A stretch of 38,545 nucleotides of DNA from Streptomyces sp. NP160 (GTDB taxonomy: Bacteria; Actinomycetota; Actinomycetes; Actinomycetales; Quadrisphaeraceae). The stretch covers positions 43,142 through 81,686 of the forward strand of contig NZ_VDMJ01000040.1 in assembly GCF_006335115.1 (NCBI RefSeq), written 5' to 3'. The notes beneath the pieces are model-generated. The model worked only from the letters and a program-made list of their open reading frames with translations. It made no database searches and was not told where the DNA came from. A program made the position numbers and the translations under genes. This document shows, piece after piece, positions 19,019 through 38,516 of this stretch (positions are counted from its first letter, which is position 1; every line of letters starts with the position of its first letter).

Positions 19019-20049
19019 CACTTCACCACCCGCAGGCGGCTCCGGTGCGGCCACGCGGCGGCGACGATCGCCCCGATGAGCACGGCGCCGGACACGGCGG
19101 ACTGGATGTTGGGGCTGACCCCCGAGAGGATCAGGCCGTTGTTGAGGACGGTCAGCAGCAGCACGCCGAGCGCGGTGCGGGCGATGCCGCCGCGACCGCC
19201 GCCCAGCGAGGTGCCGCCGATGACGACGGCGGCGATGGTGAGGAAGAGCGTTCCCGCGCCGAGGGTCACCGAGCCCGCCCCCAGCTGCAGCGAGGCGAGC
19301 ACGCCCGCGAGGGCGCTGCACCCGCCGGCCACCATGAAGACCGCCACCTTGGTGCGGGCGGCGCGCACGCCGTTGTCGCGGGCGATGCGCTCGTCGGCGC
19401 CGAGGGCGTAGGCCGAGCGGCCGAGCCGGGTGTAGCGGCCCACGAGCAGGCCCAGCACGAGCACCATCGCGGCCAGCCAGAACGAGTGGGGCAGGCCCAG
19501 GAGCAGGCGGCTGGCCCAGTTCGCGGTGGCGGGGTCGGTGAAGTTCGGGATGCCCTCGGTGCCGTACAGCAGCGTGGCCACCCCCAGCCCGATGTACCAG
19601 ACGCCGAGCGAGGCGATGAAGGTCGGCACCCGCAGGCGCGTGTGGATGAGCGCGGTGAGCAGGCCGATCGCCAGGCCGACGGCGAGCGCCGCGACCAGCG
19701 CGAGGGCCCCGTGGGACTCCCCGCCGCGGCTGTTGGCGCTCAGCAGCACGAACGTCATGCCGGCCGCCCCCATGACGCCCTCGACCGACAGGTCGATGCT
19801 GCCCATGAGGATGACGAGGGTGGCGCCCACGCCCACGATGAGCGGCAGGGCCGCCTGGTCGAGGATGGTGCGGGCGTTGGTGGCGGTGGCGAACGTGCCG
19901 GGGTTCAGCAGCGTGAACACCACGAGCAGCACGAGCAGGGCGATGACCTCGCCGGAGCTGCGCAGGCGGCCGTGACCCCGCCGCGCGCGGTCCGCGCGCG
20001 GCAGGGGCTGGCGACCGGGGCTCTTCGGAGCCGTGAGGACGTCGGTCAC
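19018..20049 (-). CDS. Ribose-type ABC transporter permease (first permease of leftward importer)
   Basis: BPD_transp_2/RbsC-family membrane protein, 343 residues. A basic cytoplasmic N-terminus (~30 residues) precedes multiple hydrophobic helices (VIALLVLLVVFTLLNP, GALALVAALAVGLAIGLLTAL). The family motif is VGVGATLVILMGSIDLSVEGV, with a coupling loop around ALGADERIARDNGVRAAR. The C-terminus is VVIGGTSLGGGRGGI followed by LLTVLNNGLILSGVSPNIQ. It starts with GTG, 13 bases after the binding-protein stop; the Shine-Dalgarno is weak, suggesting coupling. It is probably paired with the permease at 16401 in a heterodimeric channel. Confidence 0.93.
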   Translation of the reverse strand: MTDVLTAPKSPGRQPLPRADRARRGHGRLRSSGEVIALLVLLVVFTLLNPGTFATATNARTILDQAALPLIVGVGATLVILMGSIDLSVEGVMGAAGMTFVLLSANSRGGESHGALALVAALAVGLAIGLLTALIHTRLRVPTFIASLGVWYIGLGVATLLYGTEGIPNFTDPATANWASRLLLGLPHSFWLAAMVLVLGLLVGRYTRLGRSAYALGADERIARDNGVRAARTKVAVFMVAGGCSALAGVLASLQLGAGSVTLGAGTLFLTIAAVVIGGTSLGGGRGGIARTALGVLLLTVLNNGLILSGVSPNIQSAVSGAVLIGAIVAAAWPHRSRLRVVK

Positions 20050-20062
20050 AGTCGTCAGCAGG

Positions 20063-21202
20063 TCACTCAGAGGGCATCTTCACGGGGCCGGCGCCGACGA
20101 CCGGCACGGGCTCGGCGTTGAACGGACCTGACTCGATGAGGCCCTTGACCCAGCCGTCGACGTCGGCGTCGTACTTGGTGTAGTCGGCGAGGTTCTCCGG
20201 TGTCACGCAGCCGATCTTGAAGATGCCCTGGCGCTGCTCGGGGGTCATGGACTTGACGTCGAGCTCGCCCGTGGCGGCCTCGTAGGCGGTGAGCAGGCCG
20301 ATCGCGGAGGCCATGTAGCCGCGGTGGAAGGTCTCGGCGGTGATGGTGCTGCCGGGCTTCTGCATCAGCTCGATGGTGGGCGGGTACAGGCCCTCGCCGG
20401 CGAACTTCACGTTGGCCGTGGTGCCGGCGTTGTCGAAGGCCTGGATGGCGCCGAGCATCATCGCGTCGTCAGCGGTCCACACGCCGTTGATCTGGTCGCC
20501 GTACTTGGCGATCATGCCCTGGGCCTCCTTGAAGCCCACCTGCTGGTCCCAGTTGGCCGGGCGCTCCTCGAGGATCTTGATGTCAGGGTAGTCCTTGAGG
20601 GCCTCCTTGAGGCCCGCCACGCGCTGCTGGCTGATGGTGGAGTCGAGCACGCCGGGGAAGACGACGATGTTGCCCTTCCCGCCCATCGACTCGGCGAGGT
20701 TCTTGCCGGTGCACTCCCCGGCGTCCACGCCGGAGTGCAGCTGGAAGGCCACGAAGTTGTCGCCGACCTGCTCGGGGGTGAAGTCGTCGGGCTTGTTCCA
20801 CCAGATGACGCCGTAGCCGCCGGCCTGCTTGACCGAGTTGATGATCGGCACGGCGTCGGCGCTGGCGACCGTGTTGGAGACGAGGGCGACCTTCTTGCCC
20901 TCGGCGAGGATGGCCTGGATCTGGGAGATCTCCTGCTGCGAGGAGCCGCCGGAGTCGACCACCTTGAGCGGCACGCCGAGCTGCTTGGACAGCGACTTCG
21001 CGCCCTCGATCATCGAGGCCATGTAGGGGTTGGTCGTGTTGATGACCGACAGGACGAGCACGAGGTCGTCCTTGGCCACCGTCTGCTGGCCGCTGCCGCC
21101 GCTGGCGGCCTGCGTGGTGGTGCCGCACGCGGTGGCGGTGAGCAGGGCCAGGGAGGAGACCCCGGCAGCGAGGGCGAGGCGCCAGCGAGAGGTCGTGCGC
21201 AT
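20063..21202 (-). CDS. Sugar ABC transporter substrate-binding lipoprotein (leftward importer)
   Basis: Periplasmic-binding-protein-like domain of the ribose/galactose class (Peripla_BP_4), 379 residues. A lipoprotein signal peptide (residues ~1-25, basic MRTTSRWR then a hydrophobic core) ends in ATAC with Cys26 as the lipidation site; a Gly/Gln/Ser linker follows. The mature domain starts LVLVLSVINTTNPYMASMIEGAK, the usual first strand and ligand loop. The aromatic ligand candidates in VIWWNKPDD are notable. The ATG has GAGGAG about 10 bases upstream. It is the first gene of a four-gene importer operon and lies about 100 bases downstream of a promoter/operator shared in sequence with two other operons. 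Ligand unknown; a sugar or polyol is likely. Confidence 0.93.
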   Translation of the reverse strand: MRTTSRWRLALAAGVSSLALLTATACGTTTQAASGGSGQQTVAKDDLVLVLSVINTTNPYMASMIEGAKSLSKQLGVPLKVVDSGGSSQQEISQIQAILAEGKKVALVSNTVASADAVPIINSVKQAGGYGVIWWNKPDDFTPEQVGDNFVAFQLHSGVDAGECTGKNLAESMGGKGNIVVFPGVLDSTISQQRVAGLKEALKDYPDIKILEERPANWDQQVGFKEAQGMIAKYGDQINGVWTADDAMMLGAIQAFDNAGTTANVKFAGEGLYPPTIELMQKPGSTITAETFHRGYMASAIGLLTAYEAATGELDVKSMTPEQRQGIFKIGCVTPENLADYTKYDADVDGWVKGLIESGPFNAEPVPVVGAGPVKMPSE

Positions 21203-21440: not shown

Positions 21441-22400
21441 CTACCGCTGGGGGACCGAGGCGGCGAGGAGCTGCGCGGTCTCCGTGTCGGTGACGAGCAC
21501 GTTGATCCAGCCGCCGACGAGGGCGGCCCGGATGGCCGGCGCCTTGCTGCAACCTCCGGCCACGCCGAGGCGGCGGGGCGTGCGCCGCAGCTGCTCGGCC
21601 GTCACGCCGATGACGAGGTCGTCCAGGGGTGTGTCCAGCAGGTCGCCGCGCTCGTCGATGAAGTGCAGGCACACCTGGCCGACGGCGCCCAGCTCCCTGG
21701 CCTGCGCGAACTGCTCGGCGGTGAAGAAGTTGTCGCCGCCCAGCGGGGGTGCCACGTCGGCGGGGCCGGTGCCCACCAGCACGACGTCCAGGTCGTCCAT
21801 GGCGGCCAGGGTCTGCCGGGCGTGCCCGTCTTGGGCCAGCAGCACCTCGCGCAGGCGCGGGTCGGAGACGACGCCGGGTGCGCGCAGGTACAGCGGCTCC
21901 GCGCCGAGCAGCTGCGCCAGCCGCTCGGTGCTCTGCGCGGCGGCGTGCTGCAGGGCGGGGGCGCCGAGGTCTCCCAGCACCTCCACGACGACCTCGGCGG
22001 TGGAGGTCTGGGGGACCATCGCCTCCACGCAGTGCCGCAGCGTGCGGCTCCAGGAGGTGTACCCGAGGGTCCTGGTGCGCAGCGGGCTGCCGGCCAGGAT
22101 CGCGGCGGTCGCGTGGCCGAGGTCGCGCACCAGCTCGTCCTCGTCGTCGGCGACGACGTCGACCACGTGCGCCTCGGCCAGGCCGTAGCCCTCCTCGAGG
22201 GCGTCCTCGAGCTCGGAGTGCAGCCCCGGGGGCACGACCACCACGGTGCGGACGACGCCCGACTCCTCCGCCTGGCTCAGCAGGCGGGACACGCGGGACT
22301 GGGACAGGTGCAGGCGGGCGGCGATCTCCGCCTGGCGCAGGCCGCGCACGTGGTAGAGCCGCGCGACCTTGGTGACGAGGCGCAGCTGGCTGGGGTCCAC
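21441..22400 (-). CDS. SorC-family transcriptional regulator (first copy)
   Basis: Sugar-binding regulator of the SorC/DeoR-like family, 319 residues. The N-terminal helix-turn-helix covers residues ~5-55 (VARLYHVRGLRQAEIAARL with recognition helix LSQSRVSRLLSQAEE). A large C-terminal sugar-phosphate-binding domain follows (LGYTSWSRTLR, ELGAVGQVCLHFIDERGDLL, VAGGCSKAPAIRAALVGGWIN). It starts with GTG; TAGGGT (22413-22408) 7 bases upstream suggests a leaderless transcript. It sits between the two importer operons, with matching operator-like palindromes on both sides, and has a close paralogue at 30178 with nearly the same recognition helix. It probably controls both importers and the 31280 operon in response to a phosphorylated intermediate. 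Confidence 0.92.
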   Translation of the reverse strand: MDPSQLRLVTKVARLYHVRGLRQAEIAARLHLSQSRVSRLLSQAEESGVVRTVVVVPPGLHSELEDALEEGYGLAEAHVVDVVADDEDELVRDLGHATAAILAGSPLRTRTLGYTSWSRTLRHCVEAMVPQTSTAEVVVEVLGDLGAPALQHAAAQSTERLAQLLGAEPLYLRAPGVVSDPRLREVLLAQDGHARQTLAAMDDLDVVLVGTGPADVAPPLGGDNFFTAEQFAQARELGAVGQVCLHFIDERGDLLDTPLDDLVIGVTAEQLRRTPRRLGVAGGCSKAPAIRAALVGGWINVLVTDTETAQLLAASVPQR

Positions 22401-22490: not shown

Positions 22491-22506
22491 GTGAATATTC
22501 ATTCAC
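22491..22506. promoter_or_regulatory. Operator-like palindrome GTGAAT-N4-ATTCAC (site B)
   Basis: GTGAATATTCATTCAC has perfect 6-base inverted arms around ATTC and lies between the predicted transcript start and the ribosome-binding site of the binding-protein gene at 22581. The same arms and spacing recur at 31242-31257, and a half-degenerate copy lies at 21301. Confidence 0.65.
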
Positions 22507-22580: not shown

Positions 22581-23594
22581 GTGGCGCGACCCGGTGCACG
22601 CAAGCGCAAGGCCCTCGTGGTGCTCGCCCCCCTGGCGGCCCTCGCCGTCGCCACCCTGAGCGCCTGCGGCGGCGCCTCGACCGGGGCGGAGGGCGGTGGC
22701 AGCGGCAACAAGACGATCGGCGTCTCCGTCGCCGACCAGAAGTCCCTCTTCTACGTGGCGGCCGTCCAGGGCATGCAGGCCGAGGCCGAGGCCAAGGGCT
22801 ACGAGCTCAAGGTCACCAGCGCCAACAACAACTCCACCCAGCAGGTCAGCCAGGTCAACGACCTGCTCACCCAGAACGTCGGCGCGCTGATCTTCATCTC
22901 GCAGGACTCCACCGCCGCCAGCGCCGGCGTGCGCGCCGCCAACCAGGCCGACGTCCCGCTCATCGCCGTGGACCAGAAGCCCGAGTCGGGCGACGGCGAG
23001 CTCGCCACCTACATCGCCACCGACTCGGTCAAGGCCGCCAAGCAGCTGTGCGAGTGGATGTTCCAGCAGATGGGCGGCTCCGGAGACATCGCCATCCTCC
23101 ACGGCGTGCTCGGCTCCACCGCCGAGATCCAGCGCACCCAGGGCTGCCAGGAGGCGCTCAAGGAGAACCCGAACATCAAGGTGGTGGCCGAGCAGACCGC
23201 CAACTGGGACGAGACGCAGGCCTTCCAGGCCACGCAGAACATCCTCACCGCCAACCCGGACCTCAAGGCGGTCTTCGGCGAGTCCGACGCGATGGGCCTG
23301 GGCGCCGCCAAGGCCGCCCGGCAGGCCGGCCGCACCGACCTCATCTCAGTGGGCATCGACGGCTTCCCGACGATGTTCGACGGCATCTCCCAGGGCCTGA
23401 CCCAGGCGACCATGGCGCAGCAGCCCTACAAGATGGGCCAGATCGCCGTCGACAACGCCATCGCCTACATCGAGGGCCAGGGCGACTCGGTGCCGAAGGA
23501 GCAGTACCAGGACACCGTCCTCATCACCAAGGACAACGTGGCCTCCGAGGACGTCACGACGTTCTACGGCCCCGACGCGAAGACGCAGCAGTGA
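22581..23594 (+). CDS. Sugar ABC transporter substrate-binding lipoprotein (rightward importer)
   Basis: RbsB-like (Peripla_BP_4) binding protein, 337 residues. The signal peptide has basic residues 1-10 (ARPGARKRK), a hydrophobic core and the lipobox LSAC (Cys29). The mature domain begins KTIGVSVADQKSLFYVAAVQGM. Later motifs NPDLKAVFGESDAMGLGAAKAAR and DLISVGIDGFP are typical of ribose/galactose-class proteins. The GTG at 22581 follows AAGGAG by 7 bases; no earlier in-frame start gives a signal peptide. It is the first gene of a seven-gene operon behind operator B. It is quite different from the binding protein at 20063, so the two importers probably take different or differently modified substrates. 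Confidence 0.94.
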   Translation: MARPGARKRKALVVLAPLAALAVATLSACGGASTGAEGGGSGNKTIGVSVADQKSLFYVAAVQGMQAEAEAKGYELKVTSANNNSTQQVSQVNDLLTQNVGALIFISQDSTAASAGVRAANQADVPLIAVDQKPESGDGELATYIATDSVKAAKQLCEWMFQQMGGSGDIAILHGVLGSTAEIQRTQGCQEALKENPNIKVVAEQTANWDETQAFQATQNILTANPDLKAVFGESDAMGLGAAKAARQAGRTDLISVGIDGFPTMFDGISQGLTQATMAQQPYKMGQIAVDNAIAYIEGQGDSVPKEQYQDTVLITKDNVASEDVTTFYGPDAKTQQ

Positions 23595-23595
23595 C

Positions 23596-25248
23596 ATGGC
23601 GGCCCCGACGACGACGAGGACGTCCATGACCGCCTCCAGCGCTGCCTCGGACCGGCTCGAGGTCGTCGGGGCCGGCACCTCGTCCAGCAGCTCGGCAGGA
23701 CTGGTGTGCACCGGCCTGGTCAAGGAGTACGCCGGAGTCCGCGTGCTCAAGGGCGTCGACATCACCGTCGCCCCGGCCTCCGTGCTCGGCTTCATCGGCG
23801 AGAACGGCGCCGGCAAGTCGACCACCAGCTCCATCATCACCGGCGTCGTGAAGCCCGACGGCGGGTCGATGACCCTCGACGGCGCGCCGTACGCCCCCTC
23901 GGGCCCCGCGGCCGCGCTCGACGCCGGGGTGGCCCTCATCCACCAGGAGATCCGGCTGCTGCCGGAGCTGTCGGTGGCCGAGAACATCTTCCTCGGCCGG
24001 CTCCCGATGGCCGGCGGGCGGCTGGCCCGCAGCCGGATGGAGTCGCAGGCCCGGGAAGCGCTCCGCACGCTCGGGGTGGACCTCGACCCGCGCCGCCAGG
24101 TCCGCGGACTGCCGATCGCCGTGCAGCAGGAGATCGAGATCGCCAAGGCGATCTCGCGCCGCCCCAGGTACGTCATCTTCGACGAGCCGTCGGCGTCCCT
24201 CGGCGAGAGCGAGACCGAGCGGGTGCTGGAGCAGATCGGCGTCCTGCGCGACGCCGGCGCCGGTGTCGTCTACATCTCCCACCGCCTGGAGGAGGTGCGC
24301 CGCACCGCCGACCAGGTCCTCTGCCTGCGCGACGGGCAGCGTGTGGCCTTCTGGGACACCGGTGACGTGCCCCAGCGCGAGCTGGTCAACGCCATGGTCG
24401 GCCGGGAGTTCACCTACCAGCACTCCGCGCCCGCCCCCGCCACCGACCGCGAGGTGCTGCGCGTGCGCGGCCTGGGCCGCCGCGGCGCGTTCGAGGGCAT
24501 CGACCTCGAGGTGCGCGCCGGGGAGGTCCTCGGCGTGGCCGGTCTCGTCGGTGCCGGACGCACCGAGGTGGTCCGCGCCGTCTGCGGCGTCGACAGGCCG
24601 GACGCCGGCACCGTCGTCGTCGACGGGAAGGAGCTCAAGCGCGGCGACGCCCGCGCCGCCATCCGCGCCGGCGTGGTCATGGTCCCCGAGGACCGCAAGG
24701 GCCAGGGGCTCAACCTCGACCGGACCGCCGCGGAGAACATCACCCTGCCCTGGGAGGCGTCGCTGGCCAGGGGCGGCCTCGTCTCCCGGAAGGTCGTCAA
24801 GGACACCGCCGACAAGCTCAGCAGGGACCTCGACATCCGCGGCCGGCTCCACCTGCCGGTGGCCTCCATGTCGGGCGGCAACCAGCAGAAGGTGCTGCTC
24901 GGCAAGTGGCTCGTGAAGACCCCCCGGGTCTTCATCATCGACGAGCCGACGCGCGGCGTGGACGTCGGCGCGAAGATGGCGATCTACGAGATCATCCGCG
25001 GCCTGGCCGCCCAGGGCGTCGCCGTCGTCGTCGTCTCCTCCGAGCTGGAGGAGGTCCTGGGCCTGGCCCACCGCGTCATGGTCATGGGCGGGGGCCACAA
25101 CCGCGGGGTGCTGACCCGCGAGCAGGCCACCCCGCAGGCCGTCATGGAGCTCGCCGTGCTCGGCACGGCCTCCGAGGGGTCCACCGGGACCCTCACCACC
25201 TCCACCAGCGAGAAGACGACCCCCTCACCGGAAGGTCAGGACCGATGA
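23596..25248 (+). CDS. Ribose-type ABC transporter ATPase (rightward importer)
   Basis: RbsA/MglA-type fused dual-NBD ATPase, 550 residues. NBD1: GENGAGKSTTSSIITG, IHQEIRLLPELSVAENIFLG, and Walker B IFDEPSASLGE. NBD2: degenerate P-loop GLVGAGRTEVV as usual for the family, signature MSGGNQQKVLLGKWL, intact Walker B IIDEPTRGVDVGAK. The ATG at 23596 lies one base after the binding-protein stop; ATG 23626, with GAGG six bases before it, is a plausible alternative that would trim ten residues. The C-terminus is Thr/Ser-rich. The stop overlaps the permease start (ATGA). Confidence 0.95.
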   Translation: MAAPTTTRTSMTASSAASDRLEVVGAGTSSSSSAGLVCTGLVKEYAGVRVLKGVDITVAPASVLGFIGENGAGKSTTSSIITGVVKPDGGSMTLDGAPYAPSGPAAALDAGVALIHQEIRLLPELSVAENIFLGRLPMAGGRLARSRMESQAREALRTLGVDLDPRRQVRGLPIAVQQEIEIAKAISRRPRYVIFDEPSASLGESETERVLEQIGVLRDAGAGVVYISHRLEEVRRTADQVLCLRDGQRVAFWDTGDVPQRELVNAMVGREFTYQHSAPAPATDREVLRVRGLGRRGAFEGIDLEVRAGEVLGVAGLVGAGRTEVVRAVCGVDRPDAGTVVVDGKELKRGDARAAIRAGVVMVPEDRKGQGLNLDRTAAENITLPWEASLARGGLVSRKVVKDTADKLSRDLDIRGRLHLPVASMSGGNQQKVLLGKWLVKTPRVFIIDEPTRGVDVGAKMAIYEIIRGLAAQGVAVVVVSSELEEVLGLAHRVMVMGGGHNRGVLTREQATPQAVMELAVLGTASEGSTGTLTTSTSEKTTPSPEGQDR

Positions 25249-26264
25249 GCGCTCCGACCGCAGCGCGCCCCACCCCGCACGCCCCCGCACCCGCCCAGCC
25301 CTCGGCGAAGGACCGCGCCCTCGCGGCGTTCCGGTCGCTGCCCGGCCCGCTCGTGGGCCTCGTGGTGATCGTCATCGCGATGTCGTTCCTGTCGCCGTAC
25401 TTCCTCACCTCGCGCAACCTGCTGAACATCGTCAGTGCGGTCTCCGCGATCGGGATCATGGCGGTCGGTGCCGCCCTGGTGATCATCATCGGCGGCATCG
25501 ACCTCTCAGTCGGGTCCGTCCTGGCGATCACGGCGATGTTCAGCGCCTGGCTCTTCAAGGACCACGGCATCCCCTTCGCCGCCGCCCTGCTCGCAGCTCT
25601 CCTGCTGGGTGCGTTCATCGGCCTGGTCAACGGCGTCCTCGCCACCAAGGGCAGGGTCCAGCCGTTCGTGGCGACGCTCGCGACGATGTCGGCGGCGGCT
25701 GGTCTGGCGCTCTGGATCACCGACGGCAACCCGATCACGGCGTTCCCCGGCTGGTTCCTGACGCTCACCGAGAACGTACCGGGCACGCAGATCCCCGTGC
25801 AGGGCCTGATCATGGTGGCCGTCTACCTCGGGGCGGCGTTCTGGCTGCGCTACCGGCCCGACGGGCGCGCCCTGTACGCCATCGGCGGCAACGAGGAGGT
25901 CGCGCGGCTGTCGGGCCTGCGCGTCACCTCGCTGAAGATCCGCGTGTACGTCATCGCCGGCGTCCTCGCCGCCGTCGCGGGCATGCTCACCACCTCGCGG
26001 CTCGACTCGGCAGCCCCCAGCGCGGGCTCGACCGACCTGCTCAACGTCATCGCCGTGGTGGTCATCGGTGGCGCCAGCCTGGCCGGCGGCTCGGGCACGA
26101 TGCTCGGGACCTTCATCGGCCTGCTCATCATCGGCACGCTGAACAACGGCATGTCGCTGCTCAACGTCTCGCCCAACCTGCAGCCCGTCGTCATCGGCGT
26201 GGTCATCATCGCGGCCGTCATGAGCGACCGCGGTGGGCGGGCCCGGCTGCGGGGCGGTCACTGA
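25245..26264 (+). CDS. Ribose-type ABC transporter permease (rightward importer)
   Basis: RbsC-like membrane permease, 339 residues. A Pro/Ala-rich cytoplasmic N-terminus precedes ~9 hydrophobic helices (LVGLVVIVIAMSFLSPYFL, PFAAALLAALLLGAFIGLVNGVL). Family motifs are AVGAALVIIIGGIDLSVGSVLAI, the coupling loop AIGGNEEVARLSGLRV and the C-terminal VVVIGGASLAGGSGTMLG. The ATG overlaps the ATPase TGA by 4 bases, and its own stop overlaps the next ATG (TGATG). It is the only permease in this operon, so a homodimeric channel is expected, in contrast to the leftward importer. Confidence 0.95.
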   Translation: MSAPTAARPTPHAPAPAQPSAKDRALAAFRSLPGPLVGLVVIVIAMSFLSPYFLTSRNLLNIVSAVSAIGIMAVGAALVIIIGGIDLSVGSVLAITAMFSAWLFKDHGIPFAAALLAALLLGAFIGLVNGVLATKGRVQPFVATLATMSAAAGLALWITDGNPITAFPGWFLTLTENVPGTQIPVQGLIMVAVYLGAAFWLRYRPDGRALYAIGGNEEVARLSGLRVTSLKIRVYVIAGVLAAVAGMLTTSRLDSAAPSAGSTDLLNVIAVVVIGGASLAGGSGTMLGTFIGLLIIGTLNNGMSLLNVSPNLQPVVIGVVIIAAVMSDRGGRARLRGGH

Positions 26265-29316: not shown

Positions 29317-30188
29317 CCACGACGACGACGGTCGCCCCGGCGGACCTGGAGGCGCTGCTGCGCCGCCCGGACGACGCGTACGACGGGTGCGTGTTCGACC
29401 TCGACGGCACCCTCTACCTCGGCGACGCGCTGCTGCCCGGCTCCGCGGAGCTGGTGGCGGCGCTGCGCGAGCGGGGCTCGAAGACGGTGTTCCTGTCCAA
29501 CAACCCCACCCGCGACCCGGTGATGTACGCCGAGAAGCTCACCCGCCTGGGCATCCCCACGTCCGTGGAGGAGGTGCTCAACCCGCTCGTCACCACCGCC
29601 GCGTGGCTGGCGGCGAACGCCCCGGGCGCCGGGGTGTTCGTCATCGGCGAGGAGCCGCTGCGCCGCCACCTCGCCGCCACGGGCGTGCGCCTGGTGGAGC
29701 GCGCGGAGGAGACCGACGTCGTCGTCGCCAGCTACGACCGCGGCTTCGACTACGCGAAGCTGCAGACGGCCTTCGACGCGCTGTGGTTCCACCGCCGCGC
29801 GCGGCTCATCACCACCAACCCCGACCGGTTCTGCCCGATGCCCGGTGGGCGCGGCGAGCCGGACGCGGCGGCGGTGGTGGCGGCCATCGAGGCGTGCACC
29901 GGCGCCCGCTGCGAGGCCAACCTCGGCAAGCCGGCCGCCTCCATGCTCGAGGCGGTGCGCGACCTGCTGGGGCTGCCGCTGGAGCGCTGCATCATGGTGG
30001 GGGACCGGCTGTCCACCGACATCGCCATGGCGCAGGCCGCGGGCATGGACTCCGCGCTCGTGCTCACGGGGGAGAACACCCTGGCCGACGTCGCGGCACT
30101 GCCCGTCGAGCAGCGCCCCACCTGGGTGCTGCGCGGCGCGTTCGAGCTGCTGCCCGACCTCGTCGCAGGAGCGAGCGGTGGCCGTTGA
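29313..30188 (+). CDS. HAD-IIA family sugar-phosphate phosphatase (NagD/AraL-like)
   Basis: Haloacid-dehalogenase-type phosphatase, subclass IIA, 291 residues. Motif I is CVFDLDGTLYLG with nucleophile Asp29 and Asp31, motif II FLSNNPTRDP, motif III Lys in NLGKPAASM, and motif IV MVGDRLSTDIAMAQAAGM. The C2-type cap lies between motifs II and III. It resembles AraL, NagD and phosphoglycolate/glycerol-phosphate phosphatases. With the kinase just upstream it may reverse or repair misphosphorylation of pathway sugars. The ATG overlaps the kinase stop by 4 bases, and its 3' end overlaps the SorC gene by 11 bases. Confidence 0.9.
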   Translation: MTTTTTVAPADLEALLRRPDDAYDGCVFDLDGTLYLGDALLPGSAELVAALRERGSKTVFLSNNPTRDPVMYAEKLTRLGIPTSVEEVLNPLVTTAAWLAANAPGAGVFVIGEEPLRRHLAATGVRLVERAEETDVVVASYDRGFDYAKLQTAFDALWFHRRARLITTNPDRFCPMPGGRGEPDAAAVVAAIEACTGARCEANLGKPAASMLEAVRDLLGLPLERCIMVGDRLSTDIAMAQAAGMDSALVLTGENTLADVAALPVEQRPTWVLRGAFELLPDLVAGASGGR

Positions 30189-31170
30189 GGCGGCTCACCG
30201 GGCCCTCCCGCGCCAGGTGCCGCCCGCGGCGGACGCGGCGCAGCTGCGGCTGGTCACGCTCGTCGCGCGGCTCTACCACGTGCGGGGGGTGCGCCAGCGC
30301 GACATCGCCGCCCGCCTGGGGCTCTCGCAGCCGCGCGTCTCACGGCTGCTGAGCGCCGCCGAGGAGCTGGGCGTCGTGCGCACCGTGGTGGTGGCCCCGC
30401 CGGGGCTGCGCCCGGAGCTGGAGGACGCCGTGGAGGCGCGGTACGCCGTCTCCGAGGTGCACGTCGTCGAGACCAGCGACCCCGACGACGTGGCGCTCGA
30501 GCTCGGGACGGCCGCGGCGGCGCACTTCAGCGACGCCTGGCCGGCCGGCGCGGTGGTCGGCTTCACCTCGTGGAGCACCACCCTGCAGGCCATGGCCGAC
30601 GCCCTGGCGCCGCAGCGGCGCAGCGGGGTGGGCCAGGTGGTGGAGATGCTCGGCGACATCGGCTCGCCGCTGCTGCAGCACGAGGCCGCCCGCAGCACCC
30701 TCCGCCTGGCGCAGGCGCTCGGTGCCGAGGCCGTGTTCCTGCGCACGCCGGGGGTGGCGGGCAGCCGCGAGCTGCGCGACGCCGCGGCGGGCAACCCGCA
30801 CGTCGCCACCGCGCTGGGGCTGCTCGGCGCGGTGGACGTCGCGTTCGTGGGCGTCGGGCCGGCGCAGTTCCACGGGCCCATGCAGGCCGGGGACAACTCC
30901 TTCAGCGCCGAGCAGCTCGGGGCCGCCCGAGCCGCGGGGGCGGTGGCGCAGCTCGTGCAGCGCTTCGTCGACGACCAGGGGCGTCCCGTGGACACGCCCC
31001 TGGACGACCTCGTGGTGGGTGTCGACCTGGACCAGCTGCGTCGCGCCGGCCGGCGCGTCGTCGTGGCCGGGGGGCGCAGCAAGCACGCGGCGGTCCGCGC
31101 CTGCCTGGCCGGCGGGTGGGTGGACGTGCTGGTCACCGACGTGGTGACGGCGGAGCAGCTCCTCACCTGA
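30178..31170 (+). CDS. SorC-family transcriptional regulator (second copy)
   Basis: A 330-residue paralogue of the regulator at 21441. A ~20-residue N-terminal extension precedes the helix-turn-helix (LVARLYHVRGVRQRDIAARL with recognition helix LSQPRVSRLLSAAEE). The C-terminal effector domain has the same landmarks (GFTSWSTTLQAM, VEMLGDIGSPLLQHEAARST, DDLVVGVDLDQLRRAGRRVV, GGWVDVLVTD). The GTG at 30178 is supported by AGGAG 6 bases upstream. It is the last gene of the rightward importer operon, directly before operator C, so it is probably autoregulated through operator B and acts on the 31280 operon. Confidence 0.92.
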   Translation: MAVEAAHRALPRQVPPAADAAQLRLVTLVARLYHVRGVRQRDIAARLGLSQPRVSRLLSAAEELGVVRTVVVAPPGLRPELEDAVEARYAVSEVHVVETSDPDDVALELGTAAAAHFSDAWPAGAVVGFTSWSTTLQAMADALAPQRRSGVGQVVEMLGDIGSPLLQHEAARSTLRLAQALGAEAVFLRTPGVAGSRELRDAAAGNPHVATALGLLGAVDVAFVGVGPAQFHGPMQAGDNSFSAEQLGAARAAGAVAQLVQRFVDDQGRPVDTPLDDLVVGVDLDQLRRAGRRVVVAGGRSKHAAVRACLAGGWVDVLVTDVVTAEQLLT

Positions 31171-31228: not shown

Positions 31229-31240
31229 CATCATGCAGTG

Positions 31241-31258
31241 GGTGAATGAACATTCACC
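31241..31258. promoter_or_regulatory. Operator-like palindrome GGTGAAT-N4-ATTCACC (site C)
   Basis: GGTGAATGAACATTCACC has perfect 7-base arms around GAAC. Its GTGAAT/ATTCAC arms and N4 spacing equal those of site B at 22491. It lies between the predicted transcript start (~31235) and the ribosome-binding site (31267-31272), a position suited to repression. The SorC gene just upstream is the likely source of its ligand protein. Confidence 0.7.
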
Positions 31259-31279
31259 CCGACCCCAGGAGGAACCCCA

Positions 31280-33413: not shown

Positions 33414-33656
33414 ATGGCACGCGTCGAGGTCCTCCTGCCCCAGTGGGGCATGGGCATGAGCGAGGGCACCATCACCACCTGGCTGAAGGCCGTGGGGGAC
33501 GACGTCACCGAGGACGAGGCGCTGGCGGAGGTGGAGGCGGAGAAGGTCGAGGAGACCCTCGAGGCACCCGCCACCGGCAAGCTCGTCGAGCTCCTCGTGC
33601 CCGAGGGTGACACCGTGGAGGTCCGCACCCCCGTCGCCGTGATCGAGACCGCCTGA
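33414..33656 (+). CDS. Stand-alone lipoyl-domain protein (detached E2 swinging arm)
   Basis: An 80-residue protein that is a single biotin/lipoyl domain: it begins VEVLLPQWGMGMSEGTITTWL and carries the lipoylation lysine Lys44 in EVEAEKVEETLEAP, the E2-type motif rather than the MKM of biotin carriers. No linker, subunit-binding or catalytic domain follows. The E2 catalytic core is coded separately at 37806, so the normal E2 is split in two. The ATG has a GAAGAGAGAG tract upstream; the 53-base gap before it contains the small palindrome CTTCGAAG. Its TGA overlaps the next ATG (TGATG). It presumably carries acyl groups from E1 to the separate E2 core. Confidence 0.9.
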   Translation: MARVEVLLPQWGMGMSEGTITTWLKAVGDDVTEDEALAEVEAEKVEETLEAPATGKLVELLVPEGDTVEVRTPVAVIETA

Positions 33657-35311
33657 TGAGCGCGCCCGCCGTGTCCACCGCACCGACCTCCGCGGCCGTG
33701 CCCGAGAGCGACCCGCTCGCGCTGCCGTTCGACCTCGTGGTCATCGGAGCCGGGGTCAACGGGGTCGGCATCGCCCGCGACGCCGCCCTGCGCGGCCTGC
33801 GCGTGGTGCTGCTGGAGCAGGACGACATCTGCTCCGGCGTGTCCGCCTGGTCCGGCCGGCTGGTGCACGGCGGGCTGCGCTACCTCGAGCACTACGACTT
33901 CGCGCTGGTGCGCGAGAGCCTGCGCGAGCGGGAGACCCTGTTCCGCCTCGCGCCCCACCTGGTGAAGCCGGTCCGGCTGATCATGCCGTTCTACCGGCAC
34001 AACCGGCGGCCCGGCTGGCTGATCCGGGTGGGCATGGCCCTGTACGACGTGCTCAGCTTCGACAAGAAGTCCCAGAGCCACGAGGTCCTCGGCCTGGAGA
34101 AGCTCCTGCGCCGCTTCACCGGCATCGGCCGCGACGGGCTCTCCGGCGCCGCGGTGTTCACCGACGGACAGGTGGAGTACGCCGAGCGGCTCTGCGTGGA
34201 GCTCGCCGTGGCCGCCGCGGGCGACGGCGCGGTCATCCGCACCGGAGCCCGCGTGGACGGCGTGCTCACCGAGCACGGCCGGGTGCGCGGCGTCACCTTC
34301 CGCGACACCGCCACCGGTGAGCAGCGCCAGGTGCTCGCACCCGTCGTCCTCAACGTGGCGGGCCCCTGGATCGACAGGGTGTTCGCGCAGCAGGCCGGCG
34401 TCTGGGAGGCGCAGCCGCGCCTCAACGGCGGCACCAAGGGCAGCCACCTCGTGGTGGACCCGTTCCCGGGCGCTCCCACCGACGTCGTCTACTACGAGTC
34501 CCGCAAGGACGGCCGCCTCGTGCTGGTCATCCCGTGGATGGGCCGGTACCTGCTGGGCACCACCGACATCCGCTACGACGAGGACCCGGGCACCGCCCGC
34601 TGCGACGCCGACGAGATGCAGTACATCCTGGACGAGGTCAACTCCCTCGTGCCCGAGGCGGGCCTCACCGTGGACGACGTGCTCTACACCTACTCCGGCG
34701 TGCGGCCGCTGCCGTACGCGCCGGGGGTGTCGGAGTCGAAGGTGCCGCGCAGCCACGTCCTGCACGACCACGGCGACGGCCTGCAGGGCCTCATCACGGT
34801 GGTGGGCGGCAAGCTCACCACCTACCGCCAGCTCGCCGAGGACGCCGTCGACGACGTGCTGCGCCGCCTCGGCCGGCCGTCCGTGCCCTGCGTGACGCGC
34901 AAGCTGCCGTTCCCGGGGGCCACCACCGACGAGGGCTCGGTGCGCTCCGCGCTGCGCGGCGCCGGGCTGGGCCCGCGGAGCGTGGACCGGCTGTTCGCGG
35001 TCTACGGGCGCCGCGCGCTCGACATCGTGGCGAGCGCGGGCGGCGACGCCGAGCTGCTCTCCGTCGTCGACGAGCCCAGCGGCGCCGTCGGCGCCGAGCT
35101 GCTCTTCGCGGTGACCCACGAGTTCGCCCGGGGGCTGGCCGACGTCATGGCCCGGCGCACCCTCCTCGCGTTCGAGCCCGACCACGCCCTGCCGTCCCTG
35201 GACCGCATCGCGGCCCTGCTCGGGGACCGGCTCGGCTGGGACGAGCAGCGCCGCAAGGAGGAGGTCGAGGACTACCGCACCTGGCTCGACCACCTCGCCA
35301 TCCCCGCCTGA
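33656..35311 (+). CDS. GlpD-like FAD-dependent glycerol-3-phosphate (or polyol-phosphate) dehydrogenase
   Basis: Flavin dehydrogenase that oxidises a polyol phosphate to a ketose phosphate and passes electrons to the quinone pool; 551 residues, normal GlpD length. The FAD motif is LVVIGAGVNGVGIARDAAL (GxGxxG from Gly31). The family signature is LVHGGLRYLEHYDFALVRESL, followed by NVAGPWIDRV, GTKGSHLVVD, WMGRYLLGTTD and VVGGKLTTYRQLAEDAVD. The C-terminal DAO_C domain spans ~400-551. The segment before LVHGG reads SAWSGR where many GlpDs have SSRSSK. The erythritol-phosphate enzyme EryB belongs to this family, so the substrate need not be glycerol-3-phosphate. It sits between the lipoyl gene and a GlpK-like kinase. 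Confidence 0.88.
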   Translation: MSAPAVSTAPTSAAVPESDPLALPFDLVVIGAGVNGVGIARDAALRGLRVVLLEQDDICSGVSAWSGRLVHGGLRYLEHYDFALVRESLRERETLFRLAPHLVKPVRLIMPFYRHNRRPGWLIRVGMALYDVLSFDKKSQSHEVLGLEKLLRRFTGIGRDGLSGAAVFTDGQVEYAERLCVELAVAAAGDGAVIRTGARVDGVLTEHGRVRGVTFRDTATGEQRQVLAPVVLNVAGPWIDRVFAQQAGVWEAQPRLNGGTKGSHLVVDPFPGAPTDVVYYESRKDGRLVLVIPWMGRYLLGTTDIRYDEDPGTARCDADEMQYILDEVNSLVPEAGLTVDDVLYTYSGVRPLPYAPGVSESKVPRSHVLHDHGDGLQGLITVVGGKLTTYRQLAEDAVDDVLRRLGRPSVPCVTRKLPFPGATTDEGSVRSALRGAGLGPRSVDRLFAVYGRRALDIVASAGGDAELLSVVDEPSGAVGAELLFAVTHEFARGLADVMARRTLLAFEPDHALPSLDRIAALLGDRLGWDEQRRKEEVEDYRTWLDHLAIPA

Positions 35312-35352
35312 CCAGCCGCCCAGCGGCCCCCCTGAACGACGAAGGAGTCGTC

Positions 35353-36930
35353 ATGGCCAGCCCCTCCAGCAGCGGGCCCTACGTCATGGCCCTCGACGAG
35401 GGCTCCACCAGCGCCCGCGCGGTGCTGGTGGACCCCGCCGGGCGCATCGCCGCCGAGGCCCGCAGCCCCGTGGTGCCCAAGCGCCCGCGGCGCGGCTGGG
35501 TCGAGCTCGACCCGGCCGCGCTGTGGGCGGCGCAGCGCTCGGCCATCGGCCGCGCCATGGCGCAGGTGGGGGCGCACCCCTCCGACGTCGCCGCCGTCGG
35601 CATCACCACCCACCGCGAGAGCGTCTTCATGTGGGACCGCGCCACCGGCACCCCGGTGCACCACGGGATCATGTGGATGAGCCACCAGACCGACGACGTC
35701 GTCGCCCGGTGGCGCGCCGAGGGGCTCGACGAGGAGTCGCGGGCCCGCACCGGCGTTCCGGTCGACTCCTTCTTCTCCGCCCCCAAGATCGCGTGGCTGC
35801 TGGAGGAGGTGCCGGGCGTGCGGGAGCGCGCCGAGGCCGGCGAGCTGGCGGTCGGCACGGTCGACACCTGGCTGCTGTGGAACCTCACCGGCGGCCGCTC
35901 CCACCTCACCGACCACGGCGAGGCCAGCCGCACGGGCCTGTTCAACCTCCACGACCTGGGGTGGGACCAGCACCTGCTGGACGCCTACGGCATCCCGCGC
36001 TCGCTGCTGCCGCAGGCGGTCGCCTCCGACGCGGGGTTCGGGGAGGTGGAGCCGGGCGTGCTCGGCGGCCTGGTCGGCGACCCCTCGCGGGGCGCCGCAC
36101 GCGCGGGCATCCCGGTGACCGCGGTCCTCGCCGACCAGCAGGCCGGGATGTTCGGCCAGGCGTGCTTCGCTCCCGGCAGTGCCAAGAACACCTACGGCAC
36201 CGCCAGCGTCCTCACCGTCAACAGCGGCGGGGACGTGCTCGCGGTGGAGGGCATGACCTCCTCGGCCGCCTGGACCGTCGGCGGGCAGACCACCTACGAG
36301 TCCGAGGGCGTCGTCTTCCACAGCGGGCAGACCCTGCAGTGGCTGCGCGACGACCTCAAGGTGCTGCGCGAGGGCGACGACATCGAGGTGGTCGCCCGCT
36401 CCGCCGGGGACGACCACGGCCTGCACCTCGTCCCGGGCTTCACCGGGCTGTGCGCACCCCACTGGGAGCACGGGGCCACCGCGCACCTCGTGGGCATGAC
36501 CCTGGAGACCCGCCCCGAGCACCTCGTGCGCGCGGGGGTGGAGTCGATGGCCTACCAGACCCGGGACGTGCTGGTGGGCTACGCCCGCGCTGGCATCGAG
36601 CTGACCGAGCTGCGGGTGGACGGCGGCGCCGCCGGAAACGACCTGCTCTGCCAGTTCCAGGCCGACATCGCCGGCATCCCCGTGGTGCGCCCCGACGAGC
36701 TGGAGCGCACCGCCCTCGGCGTCGCCTACCTCGCCGGCGCCGGCGTCGGCTGGTGGAAGACCCCCGACGACGTCGAGTCGAGCTGGGTCGTCGAGCGCAC
36801 CTTCGAGCCCCAGATGAGCGACGAGCGCCGCGAGGAGCTCTGCGCCGGCTGGGACGACGCCGTGGCCGGCGTCGTCGACGCCGCCGCCCGCCGCGCCGCC
36901 CGCAAGACCCCCACCCCTTCTGCACCCTGA
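35353..36930 (+). CDS. GlpK-like FGGY carbohydrate/polyol kinase
   Basis: Glycerol-kinase-type FGGY protein, 525 residues. It begins YVMALDEGSTSARAVLVDPAG (phosphate motif). GlpK-like stretches include FSAPKIAWLLEEVPGV, GTVDTWLLWNLTGG, GEASRTGLFNLHDLGWD, the catalytic Asp261 in LADQQAGMFGQ, and GSAKNTYGTASVL. The substrate loop reads TTHRESVFMWDRATG and MWMSHQTDD, where glycerol kinases have VWQCRRT, so the substrate may be a larger polyol. The ATG follows GAAGGAG by 5 bases. It is placed after the GlpD-like gene and before a class II aldolase, consistent with a kinase, oxidation, aldolase route. Confidence 0.88.
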   Translation: MASPSSSGPYVMALDEGSTSARAVLVDPAGRIAAEARSPVVPKRPRRGWVELDPAALWAAQRSAIGRAMAQVGAHPSDVAAVGITTHRESVFMWDRATGTPVHHGIMWMSHQTDDVVARWRAEGLDEESRARTGVPVDSFFSAPKIAWLLEEVPGVRERAEAGELAVGTVDTWLLWNLTGGRSHLTDHGEASRTGLFNLHDLGWDQHLLDAYGIPRSLLPQAVASDAGFGEVEPGVLGGLVGDPSRGAARAGIPVTAVLADQQAGMFGQACFAPGSAKNTYGTASVLTVNSGGDVLAVEGMTSSAAWTVGGQTTYESEGVVFHSGQTLQWLRDDLKVLREGDDIEVVARSAGDDHGLHLVPGFTGLCAPHWEHGATAHLVGMTLETRPEHLVRAGVESMAYQTRDVLVGYARAGIELTELRVDGGAAGNDLLCQFQADIAGIPVVRPDELERTALGVAYLAGAGVGWWKTPDDVESSWVVERTFEPQMSDERREELCAGWDDAVAGVVDAAARRAARKTPTPSAP

Positions 36931-36939
36931 GGAGCACCG

Positions 36940-37809
36940 ATGCACCAGGCAGACCCCCGCAAGCTCGTGCAGGACGCGCAGGCCGGCGGCTACGCCGTCG
37001 GCGCGTTCAACATGCACTCCGACGAGACCGCCCAGGCCCTCGTGCGCGCCGCCGAGATCGCCCAGGCGCCCGTGTTCCTCCAGGTCGGCCGGGCGATCGT
37101 CCCGCACATGGGCCTCAAGGCCGCCTACGAGCTGACCCGCCGCGCCGCCGAGGAGTCCGACGCCGAGGTGGTCATCCACCTCGACCACGGCCCGTGGGAG
37201 GAGGTCTTCGAGGCCATCAAGCTGGGCTTCACCTCGATCATGTACGACGGCGCGCACCTCCCGCTGGACGAGAACATCCGCACCACCCGGCAGGTCGTGC
37301 AGGTGGCCCACTCCTTCGGCATCCCCGTCGAGGCCGAGCTCGGCACCATCCCCGACGCCGGCGAGGAGGTCGACTGGTCGGCGTACTACACCAAGGTCGA
37401 CGAGGCGCAGCGCTTCGTGGAGGAGACCGGCGTCGACTGGCTGGCCGTGTCCGCCGGCATCGTCCACGGCGTGGTGCCCGACCTCCCGCCGCAGCCGCTC
37501 GACCTGCAGCGCGTGGAGGAGATCCGCGAGGCCACCGGCCTGCCGCTCGTGCTGCACGGCATGTCCGGCGTCGCCCCCGACGACGTCCAGGGCGCCATCA
37601 AGGCCGGCGTGCACAAGTTCAACGCCGACACCGACCTGCGCCACGCCTTCCGCGCCGGCGTCGAGGCCGTCTGGTCCCAGGGCGACCGCCAGCTCGAGGA
37701 CGCCCTCGCGGAGGGGCGCGCGCGGATGATCGACGCCACGGTGGCGAAGATGCGCGAGTACGGCGTCGCCGGCCGCGCCACCGGCTCGGTCGCGGGGAGC
37801 GCCCGGTGA
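36940..37809 (+). CDS. Class II (zinc) fructose-bisphosphate/tagatose-bisphosphate-type aldolase
   Basis: Reversible aldol cleavage of a ketose phosphate, usually yielding DHAP plus an aldehyde; 289 residues, the compact GatY/KbaY/Fba size. Catalytic Asp82 and zinc His83 lie in VIHLDHGPW, Glu133 in VEAELGTIP, zinc His176 in SAGIVHGVVPD and His206 in LVLHGMSGV. The DHAP-phosphate loop NADTDLR lies at 228-234. The usual HGGSG reads HGMSG, which may alter substrate choice. The ATG has GAGGAG five bases upstream. Its TGA overlaps the next GTG, coupling it to the E2 core. The substrate is presumably the phosphorylated ketose made by the two preceding enzymes. Confidence 0.92.
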   Translation: MHQADPRKLVQDAQAGGYAVGAFNMHSDETAQALVRAAEIAQAPVFLQVGRAIVPHMGLKAAYELTRRAAEESDAEVVIHLDHGPWEEVFEAIKLGFTSIMYDGAHLPLDENIRTTRQVVQVAHSFGIPVEAELGTIPDAGEEVDWSAYYTKVDEAQRFVEETGVDWLAVSAGIVHGVVPDLPPQPLDLQRVEEIREATGLPLVLHGMSGVAPDDVQGAIKAGVHKFNADTDLRHAFRAGVEAVWSQGDRQLEDALAEGRARMIDATVAKMREYGVAGRATGSVAGSAR

Positions 37810-38516
37810 GCGCCGCCACGAGCGAGGCCACCGAGGCCCCCGCGGGCCAGCCCGGTCAGCAGACGACCAAGCTCAAGGGCATCCGCCGCACGGCCGCCAA
37901 GCGCATGGTCGCCGCGTGGGAGGCCCCCGTCTTCCACCTCGGCGTGAGCGCCGACATGACCGCCGCCCTCGACGGCTCGCGCCGCCCGAAGGGCACCACC
38001 GTCACCGACGTGCTCCTCGCCGCGTGCGCCGGTGCGCTGGTGGCCCACCCGGACATGAACGCCCACTTCGGCGTGGTCGACGGCGCGGAGTCGGTCACCA
38101 CCTTCGACGCCGTGAACCTCGGCCTCGCCGTCGCCACCGACGCCGGGCTCGTCGTCCCCGTCATCCACGGCGCGCAGGACCTCGACCTCGAGGGCGTCGC
38201 CGCGGGCCGCAAGGCCGTCGTCGGCAAGGCCCGTGAGGGCAAGCTCGGGATGGCCGACGTCACCGGCGGCACCTTCACCGTCTCCAACCTCGGCATGCTC
38301 GGCATCGACAGGTTCGACGCCATCCTCAACGTGCCGCAGGTCGCGATCCTCGCCGTGGGCACCACCAGCCACCGACAGGTCTGGAACGACGGCGACCCGC
38401 AGTGGCGCCCCCTGGCCGACCTCACCCTCACCTGCGACCACCGCGCCATCGACGGCGCCACCGGCGCGCAGTTCCTCTCCGACCTCAAGCGGAGGCTGGA
38501 GGCCGGCGGCGCATGA
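37806..38516 (+). CDS. E2 acyltransferase catalytic core lacking lipoyl and subunit-binding domains
   Basis: A 236-residue protein that corresponds only to the catalytic domain of dihydrolipoyl acyltransferases (CAT-like fold). After ~22 unstructured residues it begins LKGIRRTAAKRMVAAW and ends with the active-site motif CDHRAIDG (His212, Asp216). TVSNLGMLGIDRFDAILN and PQVAILAVG are family landmarks. Ordinary E2s are 400-550 residues, with N-terminal lipoyl and E1/E3-binding domains that are both absent here. The lipoyl domain is supplied by the separate gene at 33414. The GTG start overlaps the aldolase stop (GTGA) and leaves no room for a longer in-frame N-terminus within the operon. It should assemble as a 24- or 60-mer core. 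Confidence 0.9.
   Translation: MSAATSEATEAPAGQPGQQTTKLKGIRRTAAKRMVAAWEAPVFHLGVSADMTAALDGSRRPKGTTVTDVLLAACAGALVAHPDMNAHFGVVDGAESVTTFDAVNLGLAVATDAGLVVPVIHGAQDLDLEGVAAGRKAVVGKAREGKLGMADVTGGTFTVSNLGMLGIDRFDAILNVPQVAILAVGTTSHRQVWNDGDPQWRPLADLTLTCDHRAIDGATGAQFLSDLKRRLEAGGA

Follow-up and report, generated by a model that had tools for sequence, protein, structure and literature searches.

A dissected 2-oxoacid dehydrogenase-like complex, perhaps without an E2 cage, with lipoylation genes and a probable polyol regulon in Streptomyces sp. NP160

The end of a contig of Streptomyces sp. NP160 (NZ_VDMJ01000040.1, positions 43,142 to 81,686; these 38,545 nucleotides, analysed as a whole, are called the window) encodes a 2-oxoacid dehydrogenase-like complex whose acyltransferase is divided between separate genes. 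The alpha and beta chains of a dehydrogenase (E1) are followed by an 80-residue protein consisting of a lipoyl domain, and the acyltransferase (E2) is encoded about 4.1 kb downstream as a catalytic core, behind genes for a GlpD-like dehydrogenase, a GlpK-like kinase and a class II aldolase (Table 1). The run is close-packed: intergenic gaps from E1 alpha to E2 are at most 53 bases, and genes overlap at 33656 and 37806. The original prediction described this order for positions 33414-38516, a span 5' of which both E1 genes lie. Reading frames and Pfam matches (taken at E <= 0.001 for window proteins) bear it out for the lipoyl-only protein after E1, for the E2 core lacking lipoyl and E1/E3-binding domains, and for the three polyol genes packed between them. 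The contig, and with it the window, ends 29 bases past the E2 stop codon.

Table 1. Features of the window, the dissected gene run first (aa, amino acids; TPP, thiamine pyrophosphate; ABC, ATP-binding cassette)
Feature	Position	Strand	Basis
E1 alpha, TPP-dependent, 349 aa	31280-32329	+	Pfam E1_dh 266 bits; TIGR03182 316 bits, below cut-off 394
E1 beta, 342 aa	32332-33360	+	Pfam Transket_pyr and Transketolase_C
Stand-alone lipoyl protein, 80 aa	33414-33656	+	Pfam Biotin_lipoyl 69 bits; predicted lipoyl Lys44 in AEKVEE
GlpD-like FAD polyol-phosphate dehydrogenase, 551 aa	33656-35311	+	Pfam DAO, DAO_C
GlpK-like FGGY kinase, 525 aa	35353-36930	+	NCBIfam-type models; alignment to E. coli GlpK
Class II ketose-bisphosphate aldolase, 289 aa	36940-37809	+	Pfam F_bP_aldolase 277 bits; TIGR00167 223 bits, above cut-off 216
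E2 acyltransferase core only, 236 aa, GTG start, HRAIDG motif	37806-38516	+	Pfam 2-oxoacid_dh 213 bits
Putative lipA (lipoyl synthase) start, 19 bases, cut by contig end	38527-38545	+	reads MTLAPE
Perfect palindrome GGGTGAATG-AA-CATTCACCC, candidate SorC-type operator	31240-31259	.	before E1 alpha
Second (near) copy of palindrome	22491-22506	.	between two divergent transporter operons
SorC-type sugar-binding regulator	30178-31170	+	Pfam Sugar-bind
HAD-IIA phosphatase, 291 aa	29313-30188	+	family profile matches
Second FGGY kinase, xylulokinase-like, 519 aa	27757-29316	+	family profile matches
Glycerol-1-phosphate-dehydrogenase-like (AraM-like), 498 aa	26264-27760	+	Pfam Fe-ADH_2; PRK00843 105 bits, below cut-off 413
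ABC transporter 1 permease	25245-26264	+	named from sequence; kept in relatives
ABC transporter 1 ATPase	23596-25248	+	named from sequence; kept in relatives
ABC transporter 1, RbsB-like binding protein	22617-23594	+	NCBIfam RbsB-like, below cut-off
Second SorC-type regulator	21441-22400	-	Pfam Sugar-bind
ABC transporter 2 (binding protein, two permeases, ATPase), divergent operon	16401-21202	-	gene calls; Peripla_BP_4
M20 dipeptidase-like (PepD-like) protein	14846-16333	-	TIGR01893 423 bits, above cut-off
Epoxide-hydrolase-like protein with EHN domain	13608-14843	-	Pfam EHN; PDB relatives 5f4z, 4i19

The sequence features of a 2-oxoacid dehydrogenase are present: both E1 chains, a lipoyl domain with an acceptor lysine and an E2 core with the HxxxDG motif. 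The E1 alignment contains a GDG...NN motif, which we take to mark TPP binding. A dihydrolipoyl dehydrogenase (E3) is available to the complex, with one gene of the genome exceeding the TIGR01350 cut-off and an lpdA gene in the related cluster of Shinella. What is missing is the tether. The sole Pfam match of the E2 is 2-oxoacid_dh (residues 18-232), lipoyl and subunit-binding domains being absent, and no E2 with these domains attached is found in the window or in its cluster relatives. The 80-residue protein finds its top NCBIfam match in the lipoyl part of the acetoin dehydrogenase E2 model NF011457 (70.8 bits against a cut-off of 307); the E2 core does not match that model and is thus no fused AcoC-type E2. 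With 20.3 bits against GCV_H, below the cut-off of 22.2, the small protein lacks the domain of GcvH- or LbpA-type carriers. The GlpD-like protein scores just above the cut-off of the glycerol-3-phosphate dehydrogenase model PRK12266 (361.7 against 360 bits), and the GlpK-like kinase exceeds the cut-off of the subfamily model PRK00047 (543.3 against 498) and falls below that of the equivalog model TIGR01311 (529.7 against 590.35).

The dissection of E2 is confirmed. A fused lipoyl-E2 frame hidden by a sequencing error is excluded by the 4.1 kb and three genes that intervene and by the same split in relatives; no full-length E2 for this E1 lies in the operon, and the three other E2-like matches of the genome are on other contigs. 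Both outcomes had been named beforehand as contradicting the prediction, and neither was found when looked for. A scan of genome contigs for E2 yielded 46 loci (L numbers; G numbers denote genomes). The loci closest in E2 share the split. Of the more distant loci, 23 have a lipoyl match directly upstream, and in all 23 the lipoyl domain and the core lie within one open frame. Five further distant loci (L029, L032, L041, L043, L052) have long N-terminal E2 extensions; two Methylocystaceae loci (L044, L047) carry a lipoyl match between their two E1 genes and keep an apparent binding domain before E2; L038, L046 and L053 are broken by contig ends. In a tree of 42 E2 cores, the 16 dissected E2s form one clade with support 100/99, a number that counts the window and one plasmid copy without E1, and omits L057 and L058 as duplicates.

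Two of the distant loci are also dissected. In Glaciecola pallidula (L051), E1 alpha, E1 beta, a 76-residue lipoyl protein and a 229-residue E2 are consecutive, and in Sandaracinobacteroides (L048) a 76-residue lipoyl protein follows E1 while a 246-residue E2 lies about 5 kb off on the opposite strand. Pfam gives Biotin_lipoyl alone for the small proteins and 2-oxoacid_dh alone for the E2s. Both E2s fall outside the main dissected clade on long branches, the Glaciecola placement being unsure and the Sandaracinobacteroides E2 pairing with a fused E2 (98/94), so that dissection has probably occurred more than once. Since the polyol genes of the window have no match in the 20 kb stretches around these two sets, dissection is not confined to polyol pathways. 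The sets (L051 9752-10684; L048 2311-4539 and 9776-10516) are located among apparent oxygenase and acyl-CoA genes, not polyol genes.

Among genomes drawn from the order, 5 of 396 contain the E2 at E <= 1e-55, and 4 of 13 genomes of the family contain it at E <= 1e-50, the genome studied here included in each case; the cluster is therefore an accessory trait. The search for operons combining E1, a free lipoyl protein and a short E2 with GlpD, GlpK and aldolase homologues, proposed along with the original prediction, did find such clusters. Eighteen sets were compared, and 15 of them hold a close E1 alpha; L010 and L017 are cut contigs, and a stretch of the FW306 Arthrobacter plasmid is the third set without E1. 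Several of the 15 are near kin (L018 and L019, the Arthrobacter rows) and do not amount to 15 independent cases. The aldolase and the lipoyl protein occur in all 15, the E2 core in 14, and a gene resembling that of glycerol-1-phosphate dehydrogenase (G1PDH) in 14, with one contig cut. The GlpK-like kinase is present at 48% identity or more in 14 (28% in Shinella), and GlpD at 55% or more in 13, the stretches fetched for L011 and L012 showing a second GlpD-like gene only.

Related clusters are also carried by plasmids. The E1 alpha of Rubrobacter indicoceani is 80% identical to that of the window, and those of two Shinella records of equal length are 73% identical. The Shinella plasmid cluster comprises lpdA, lipA, E1, the lipoyl protein, GlpD, the aldolase, a core-only E2, the G1PDH-like gene and the second kinase, with a HAD gene present at a distance. 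The Rubrobacter plasmid has E1, the lipoyl protein, GlpD, GlpK, the aldolase, the G1PDH-like gene and the second kinase, and tblastn over the entire plasmid found no E2. On the FW306-07-I Arthrobacter plasmid (L075 143-6390), a core-only E2 adjoins lpdA, a GlpD-like gene and thiC, and the stretch contains no E1. On a Sphingobium plasmid (L072 9977-14244), the genes for both E1 chains and a small free-standing lipoyl protein lie next to one for a pyrroloquinoline quinone-dependent dehydrogenase, and no E2 match was found in that stretch.

Lipoylation genes appear to belong to the system, a feature that the original prediction did not include. The window closes with 19 bases that read as the probable start of lipA: at the equivalent place L057 reads MVLAPE and continues as the N-terminus of LipA, and a similar start after E2 in L055 (G003) matches LipA residues 1-34 (E 3e-10). 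The LipA query sequence exceeds the cut-off of the lipoyl synthase model TIGR00510. When five genomes were searched with it, G003 gave four end pieces and G009 two, all at contig ends, and G010 and G226 gave one long copy each. Contigs of G003, G009 and probably the genome studied here break within lipA. It would seem that two near-identical lipA copies break the assemblies, and such copies may conceal the gene from draft genomes. Contig G003:C3 starts with a LipA C-terminus, a LipL-like gene, a beta-lactamase-family gene and transporter 2, while G003:C1 and G003:C2 hold pieces of the other lipA copy, the latter adjoining lipB. At the end of G009:C8, a LipA C-terminus is followed by a LipL-like gene. 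G000:C128 starts with a 25-residue LipA C-terminus (recognised by eye), a short-chain dehydrogenase/reductase (SDR) gene and a LipL-like gene, an order repeated in L088. In L095 the order is SorC, GlpD, GlpK, LipL-like, a second GlpD-like gene and LipA, the last scoring over the cut-off, and in L015 and L018 the LipL-like gene directly follows E2. One Arthrobacter genome (L095, L099, L100) has three near-identical lipA genes, beside lipB, near gcvH and in the polyol cluster; it would appear that every lipoyl system retains a lipA of its own.

The five LipL-like proteins tested match Pfam LplA-B_cat. The top NCBIfam match of four is octanoyl-[GcvH]:protein N-octanoyltransferase, far below its cut-off; the fifth is a short gene call and has no NCBIfam match. 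A LipL-like match accompanies 13 of the 15 clusters with E1. It lies on the cluster's own contig in nine (G226, L011-L016, L018, L019). In the other four (G000, G009, G012, G003) it follows a LipA end on a different contig; these stretches were fetched because they hold the match, and record its presence, not a blind count. Adding Shinella, which has lipA and lpdA instead, 14 of the 15 clusters are accompanied by a LipL-like or lipA gene.

The complex and the polyol genes probably constitute one regulon, because a palindrome shared by both operons is found nowhere else in the genome. The palindrome before E1 alpha is a probable SorC-type operator and lies within the 109 bases between the SorC gene and E1 alpha. 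The pattern TGAATRNNCATTCA, allowing at most one mismatch, has two sites in the 4.77 Mb genome, both in the window, and its reversed control has none. Within the window alone the signal is modest, with two matches against 0.40 expected and two reached by 4 of 100 shuffles. Judged by eye, similar palindromes precede E1 in L056 and L057, and weaker ones in some other loci. The joint pathway that had been proposed for these genes thus gains support from a likely shared regulon and from the recurrence of the polyol genes in the clusters. An alternative operator, TGAAC-N4-GTTCA, had no match, and a promoter and terminator scan gave nothing useful. Transporter 2 is found near the cluster in relatives too.

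A single-chain model of the E2 core is confident (predicted local distance difference test score 89.9), and its fold matches those of known E2 cores with a template modelling score of about 0.85. The HRA(I/L)DG motif is intact in 17 of 17 aligned E2 rows. The C-terminus, on the other hand, sets the dissected cores apart. All 23 distant fused E2s have a hydrophobic run at or near it, ending in LAL in 18 (mostly one related group, hence not independent) and in MIV, IVI or LLL in the rest; the fused E2s of the genome itself, L002 and L003, end differently, in RWA and LGL. The E2s of the dissected clusters end in ESS, EAGGA, EAPL, ESEKE, EKEAPAN or similar, and those of L051 and L048 in EGSFT and DAAGN. 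In canonical E2s a terminal 3-10 helix is described as forming the contacts between trimers, and an actinobacterial E2p unable to form them is a trimer (PMC10415282). Given this role of the terminal helix and the altered tail, we infer that the dissected E2s are soluble trimers, and the complex perhaps operates without an E2 cage.

Taken together, these observations make it fairly probable that the window encodes a dissected complex, embedded in a polyol regulon, whose lipoyl carrier diffuses between enzymes and which converts a polyol-derived ketol, or less likely a 2-oxoacid, to an acyl-coenzyme A (acyl-CoA); as part of this account, the regulon would be horizontally mobile. A sugar alcohol would be taken up and phosphorylated by the kinases. 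The GlpD-like and G1PDH-like enzymes, whose model families act on sn-glycerol-3-phosphate and sn-glycerol-1-phosphate, would oxidise the two opposite stereo-forms of polyol phosphates, yielding ketose phosphates to be trimmed by the aldolase and the HAD phosphatase. E1 would cleave the resulting alpha-ketol in the manner of acetoin dehydrogenase, the acyl group passing to the free 80-residue carrier, lipoylated by the cluster's own genes, and from it to CoA on the soluble E2 trimer. The housekeeping E3 would reoxidise the carrier.

Within this account, the oxidative decarboxylation of a sugar-derived 2-oxoacid in place of ketol cleavage is the less probable course, though a serious one. The E1 relatives matched are 2-oxoacid dehydrogenases, and E1 keeps histidines that are presumably catalytic in the E1 of pyruvate dehydrogenase (PDH). 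Against it, no gene among those compared across the clusters is an evident maker of a 2-oxoacid, and enzymes of the GlpD and G1PDH types yield ketols. Two E1 loops, YRFNEHSEGLR in alpha and HHSDRPYPMFMNVPG in beta, are more polar than their PDH counterparts, which we take to border the active site. The absence of an evident 2-oxoacid maker and the polarity of these loops favour the ketol as the likely substrate. In the GlpK-like kinase, Phe and Val align with Tyr135 and Phe270 of E. coli GlpK, presumably glycerol contacts in that numbering, the other contact residues being kept; these replacements suggest a kinase substrate other than glycerol. The kinase and aldolase alignments name no substrate, and the PDB matches of the binding proteins, many and of ribose type, are uninformative.

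The small protein might instead be a GcvH-like relay for lipoyl assembly, acting as donor to a LipL-like enzyme, with E1 and the E2 core using the housekeeping E2p arms in trans as OdhA does. LipL of Bacillus subtilis is described as transferring octanoyl groups from GcvH to E2 (PMC6067878), and OdhA as relying on the lipoyl groups of E2p (PMC10415282). The frequent LipL-like companions of the clusters suit such a role, and the small proteins of Shinella (23.7 bits) and Sphingobium exceed the GCV_H cut-off by about one bit. The relay is nonetheless unlikely: the window protein falls short of that cut-off, Biotin_lipoyl scores are far above GCV_H in all the small lipoyl proteins, the lipoyl gene directly follows E1 beta wherever a contig covers the place, and Shinella has the small protein with no LipL-like match on its plasmid. 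Chance adjacency of two unrelated pathways is very improbable; GlpD and GlpK do shift relative to E1 among relatives (they lie within the run, on either side of it or on the opposite strand), but the palindrome links both operons and the set persists across Actinomycetota and on an alphaproteobacterial plasmid. Slimmer still is the chance that the E2 core is a relic and E1 passes acyl groups elsewhere, as the core-less Rubrobacter plasmid might suggest, given the intact motif, the confident and complete predicted fold and the presence of the core in nearly all E1 clusters.

Several observations weigh against the account of a dissected, carrier-based complex in a polyol regulon. The palindrome pattern was derived from its own two sites, so that its informative property is its absence elsewhere, and no clear copy is seen by eye before E1 in L061, L015 and L018. 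The E2s of L010, L013, L018 and the FW306 plasmid retain a partial tail, in which a P-I pair precedes mostly polar or small residues, and the argument for a free E2 trimer is one from C-terminal sequence. The LipA search gave no lipA in the genome studied here, where the order E2-lipA-SDR-LipL would have to span a contig break. The Rubrobacter plasmid, which has E1 and the lipoyl protein, gave no match to the E2 core, a LipL-like gene or lipA when searched whole. Both the GlpD-like and GlpK-like proteins exceed family cut-offs and could serve plain glycerol chemistry. The epoxide hydrolase, the M20 protein and the BKACE protein found beside some clusters are left unaccounted for by the proposed pathway.

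The arrangement shares parts with several known systems. With the PDH, branched-chain 2-oxoacid and 2-oxoglutarate dehydrogenase complexes it has in common E1 alpha and beta, a lipoyl domain, an E2 catalytic core and a presumed reliance on E3; it differs in the separate lipoyl domain, the missing subunit-binding domain and usual hydrophobic C-terminal tail, and the lipoylation genes alongside. Acetoin dehydrogenase (AcoABC) resembles it in E1 kinship, in the lipoyl part of the AcoC model and in the proposed ketol cleavage, but that model describes one protein of 372 positions with the lipoyl part at its start. Erythritol and other tetritol pathways (EryABD) likewise use an FGGY kinase, a GlpD-like dehydrogenase, a SorC-type regulator and an Rbs-type transporter; they are not known to include an E1/E2 complex or lipoylation genes. 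The actinobacterial two-in-one 2-oxoglutarate dehydrogenase OdhA (KGD) is described as having an E2 core without lipoyl arm, supplied with lipoyl in trans, and a trimeric E2 domain (PMC10415282); it is an E2-E1 fusion using E2p arms, unlike the separate genes and dedicated small carrier of the window. The original prediction thus put it too strongly in stating that known complexes have their lipoyl arm attached to the E2 core. LbpA of sHdr sulfur oxidation is likewise a free-standing lipoyl protein, and the gene of its dedicated ligase lies close by (PMC6067878); it differs in being kin to GcvH and in working with an Hdr-like system instead of an E1/E2 pair. The portions of the open-licence literature covered by our searches contain no recognisable description of a free lipoyl protein paired with a core-only E2, or of this polyol gene set.

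The probable lipA start at the window's end, the lipoylation genes of the clusters and the palindrome-linked regulon go beyond what had been predicted for this DNA, and on sequence grounds point to an uncharacterised catabolic pathway that also occurs on plasmids in distant bacteria. The usual explanation for attaching the lipoyl arm to E2 is a gain in speed through local concentration. A natural separation of arm and core, probably repeated and combined with loss of the usual core tail, makes this idea directly testable.

The genes flanking the clusters bear on the inputs of the pathway. An EHN-type epoxide hydrolase is found in 8 of the 15 clusters, and in several others the stretch does not reach the place; Shinella and Rubrobacter have a different alpha/beta hydrolase (L071 10168-11082; L074 27957-28868), presumably with an Asp-nucleophile motif. 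Because one or other hydrolase accompanies the clusters, there is a hint that an epoxide or halide may be among the inputs. Decidedly speculative, and to be given little credence, is a new enzyme class, a cage-less, CoA-acylating ketose dehydrogenase with diffusible lipoyl. It would split a polyol-derived alpha-ketol, perhaps one bearing a tertiary carbinol, so that acyl-CoA is formed together with an aldehyde or a ketone. With kinases and dehydrogenases in stereo-complementary pairs and an enzyme of the epoxide hydrolase type, the pathway would be equipped for a stereo-mixed substrate, such as the isoprene-derived 2-methyltetrols and epoxydiols in air. The methyltetrol idea would agree with the hints from the kinase and the hydrolases, and literature searches on it found nothing. 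The M20 dipeptidase-like gene also occurs in G003, between SorC and GlpD (L055 7285-8748). A BKACE protein with an IHAHN stretch is encoded beside the cluster in L011 (18844-19791), L061 (13718-14737), L074 (29989-30936) and L097 (8357-9304). It was rejected as a core part: it is present in 10 of 14 cluster genomes searched, but away from the cluster in G009, G003 and the genome studied here, in which it adjoins apparent nucleoside-catabolism genes, as named from sequence.

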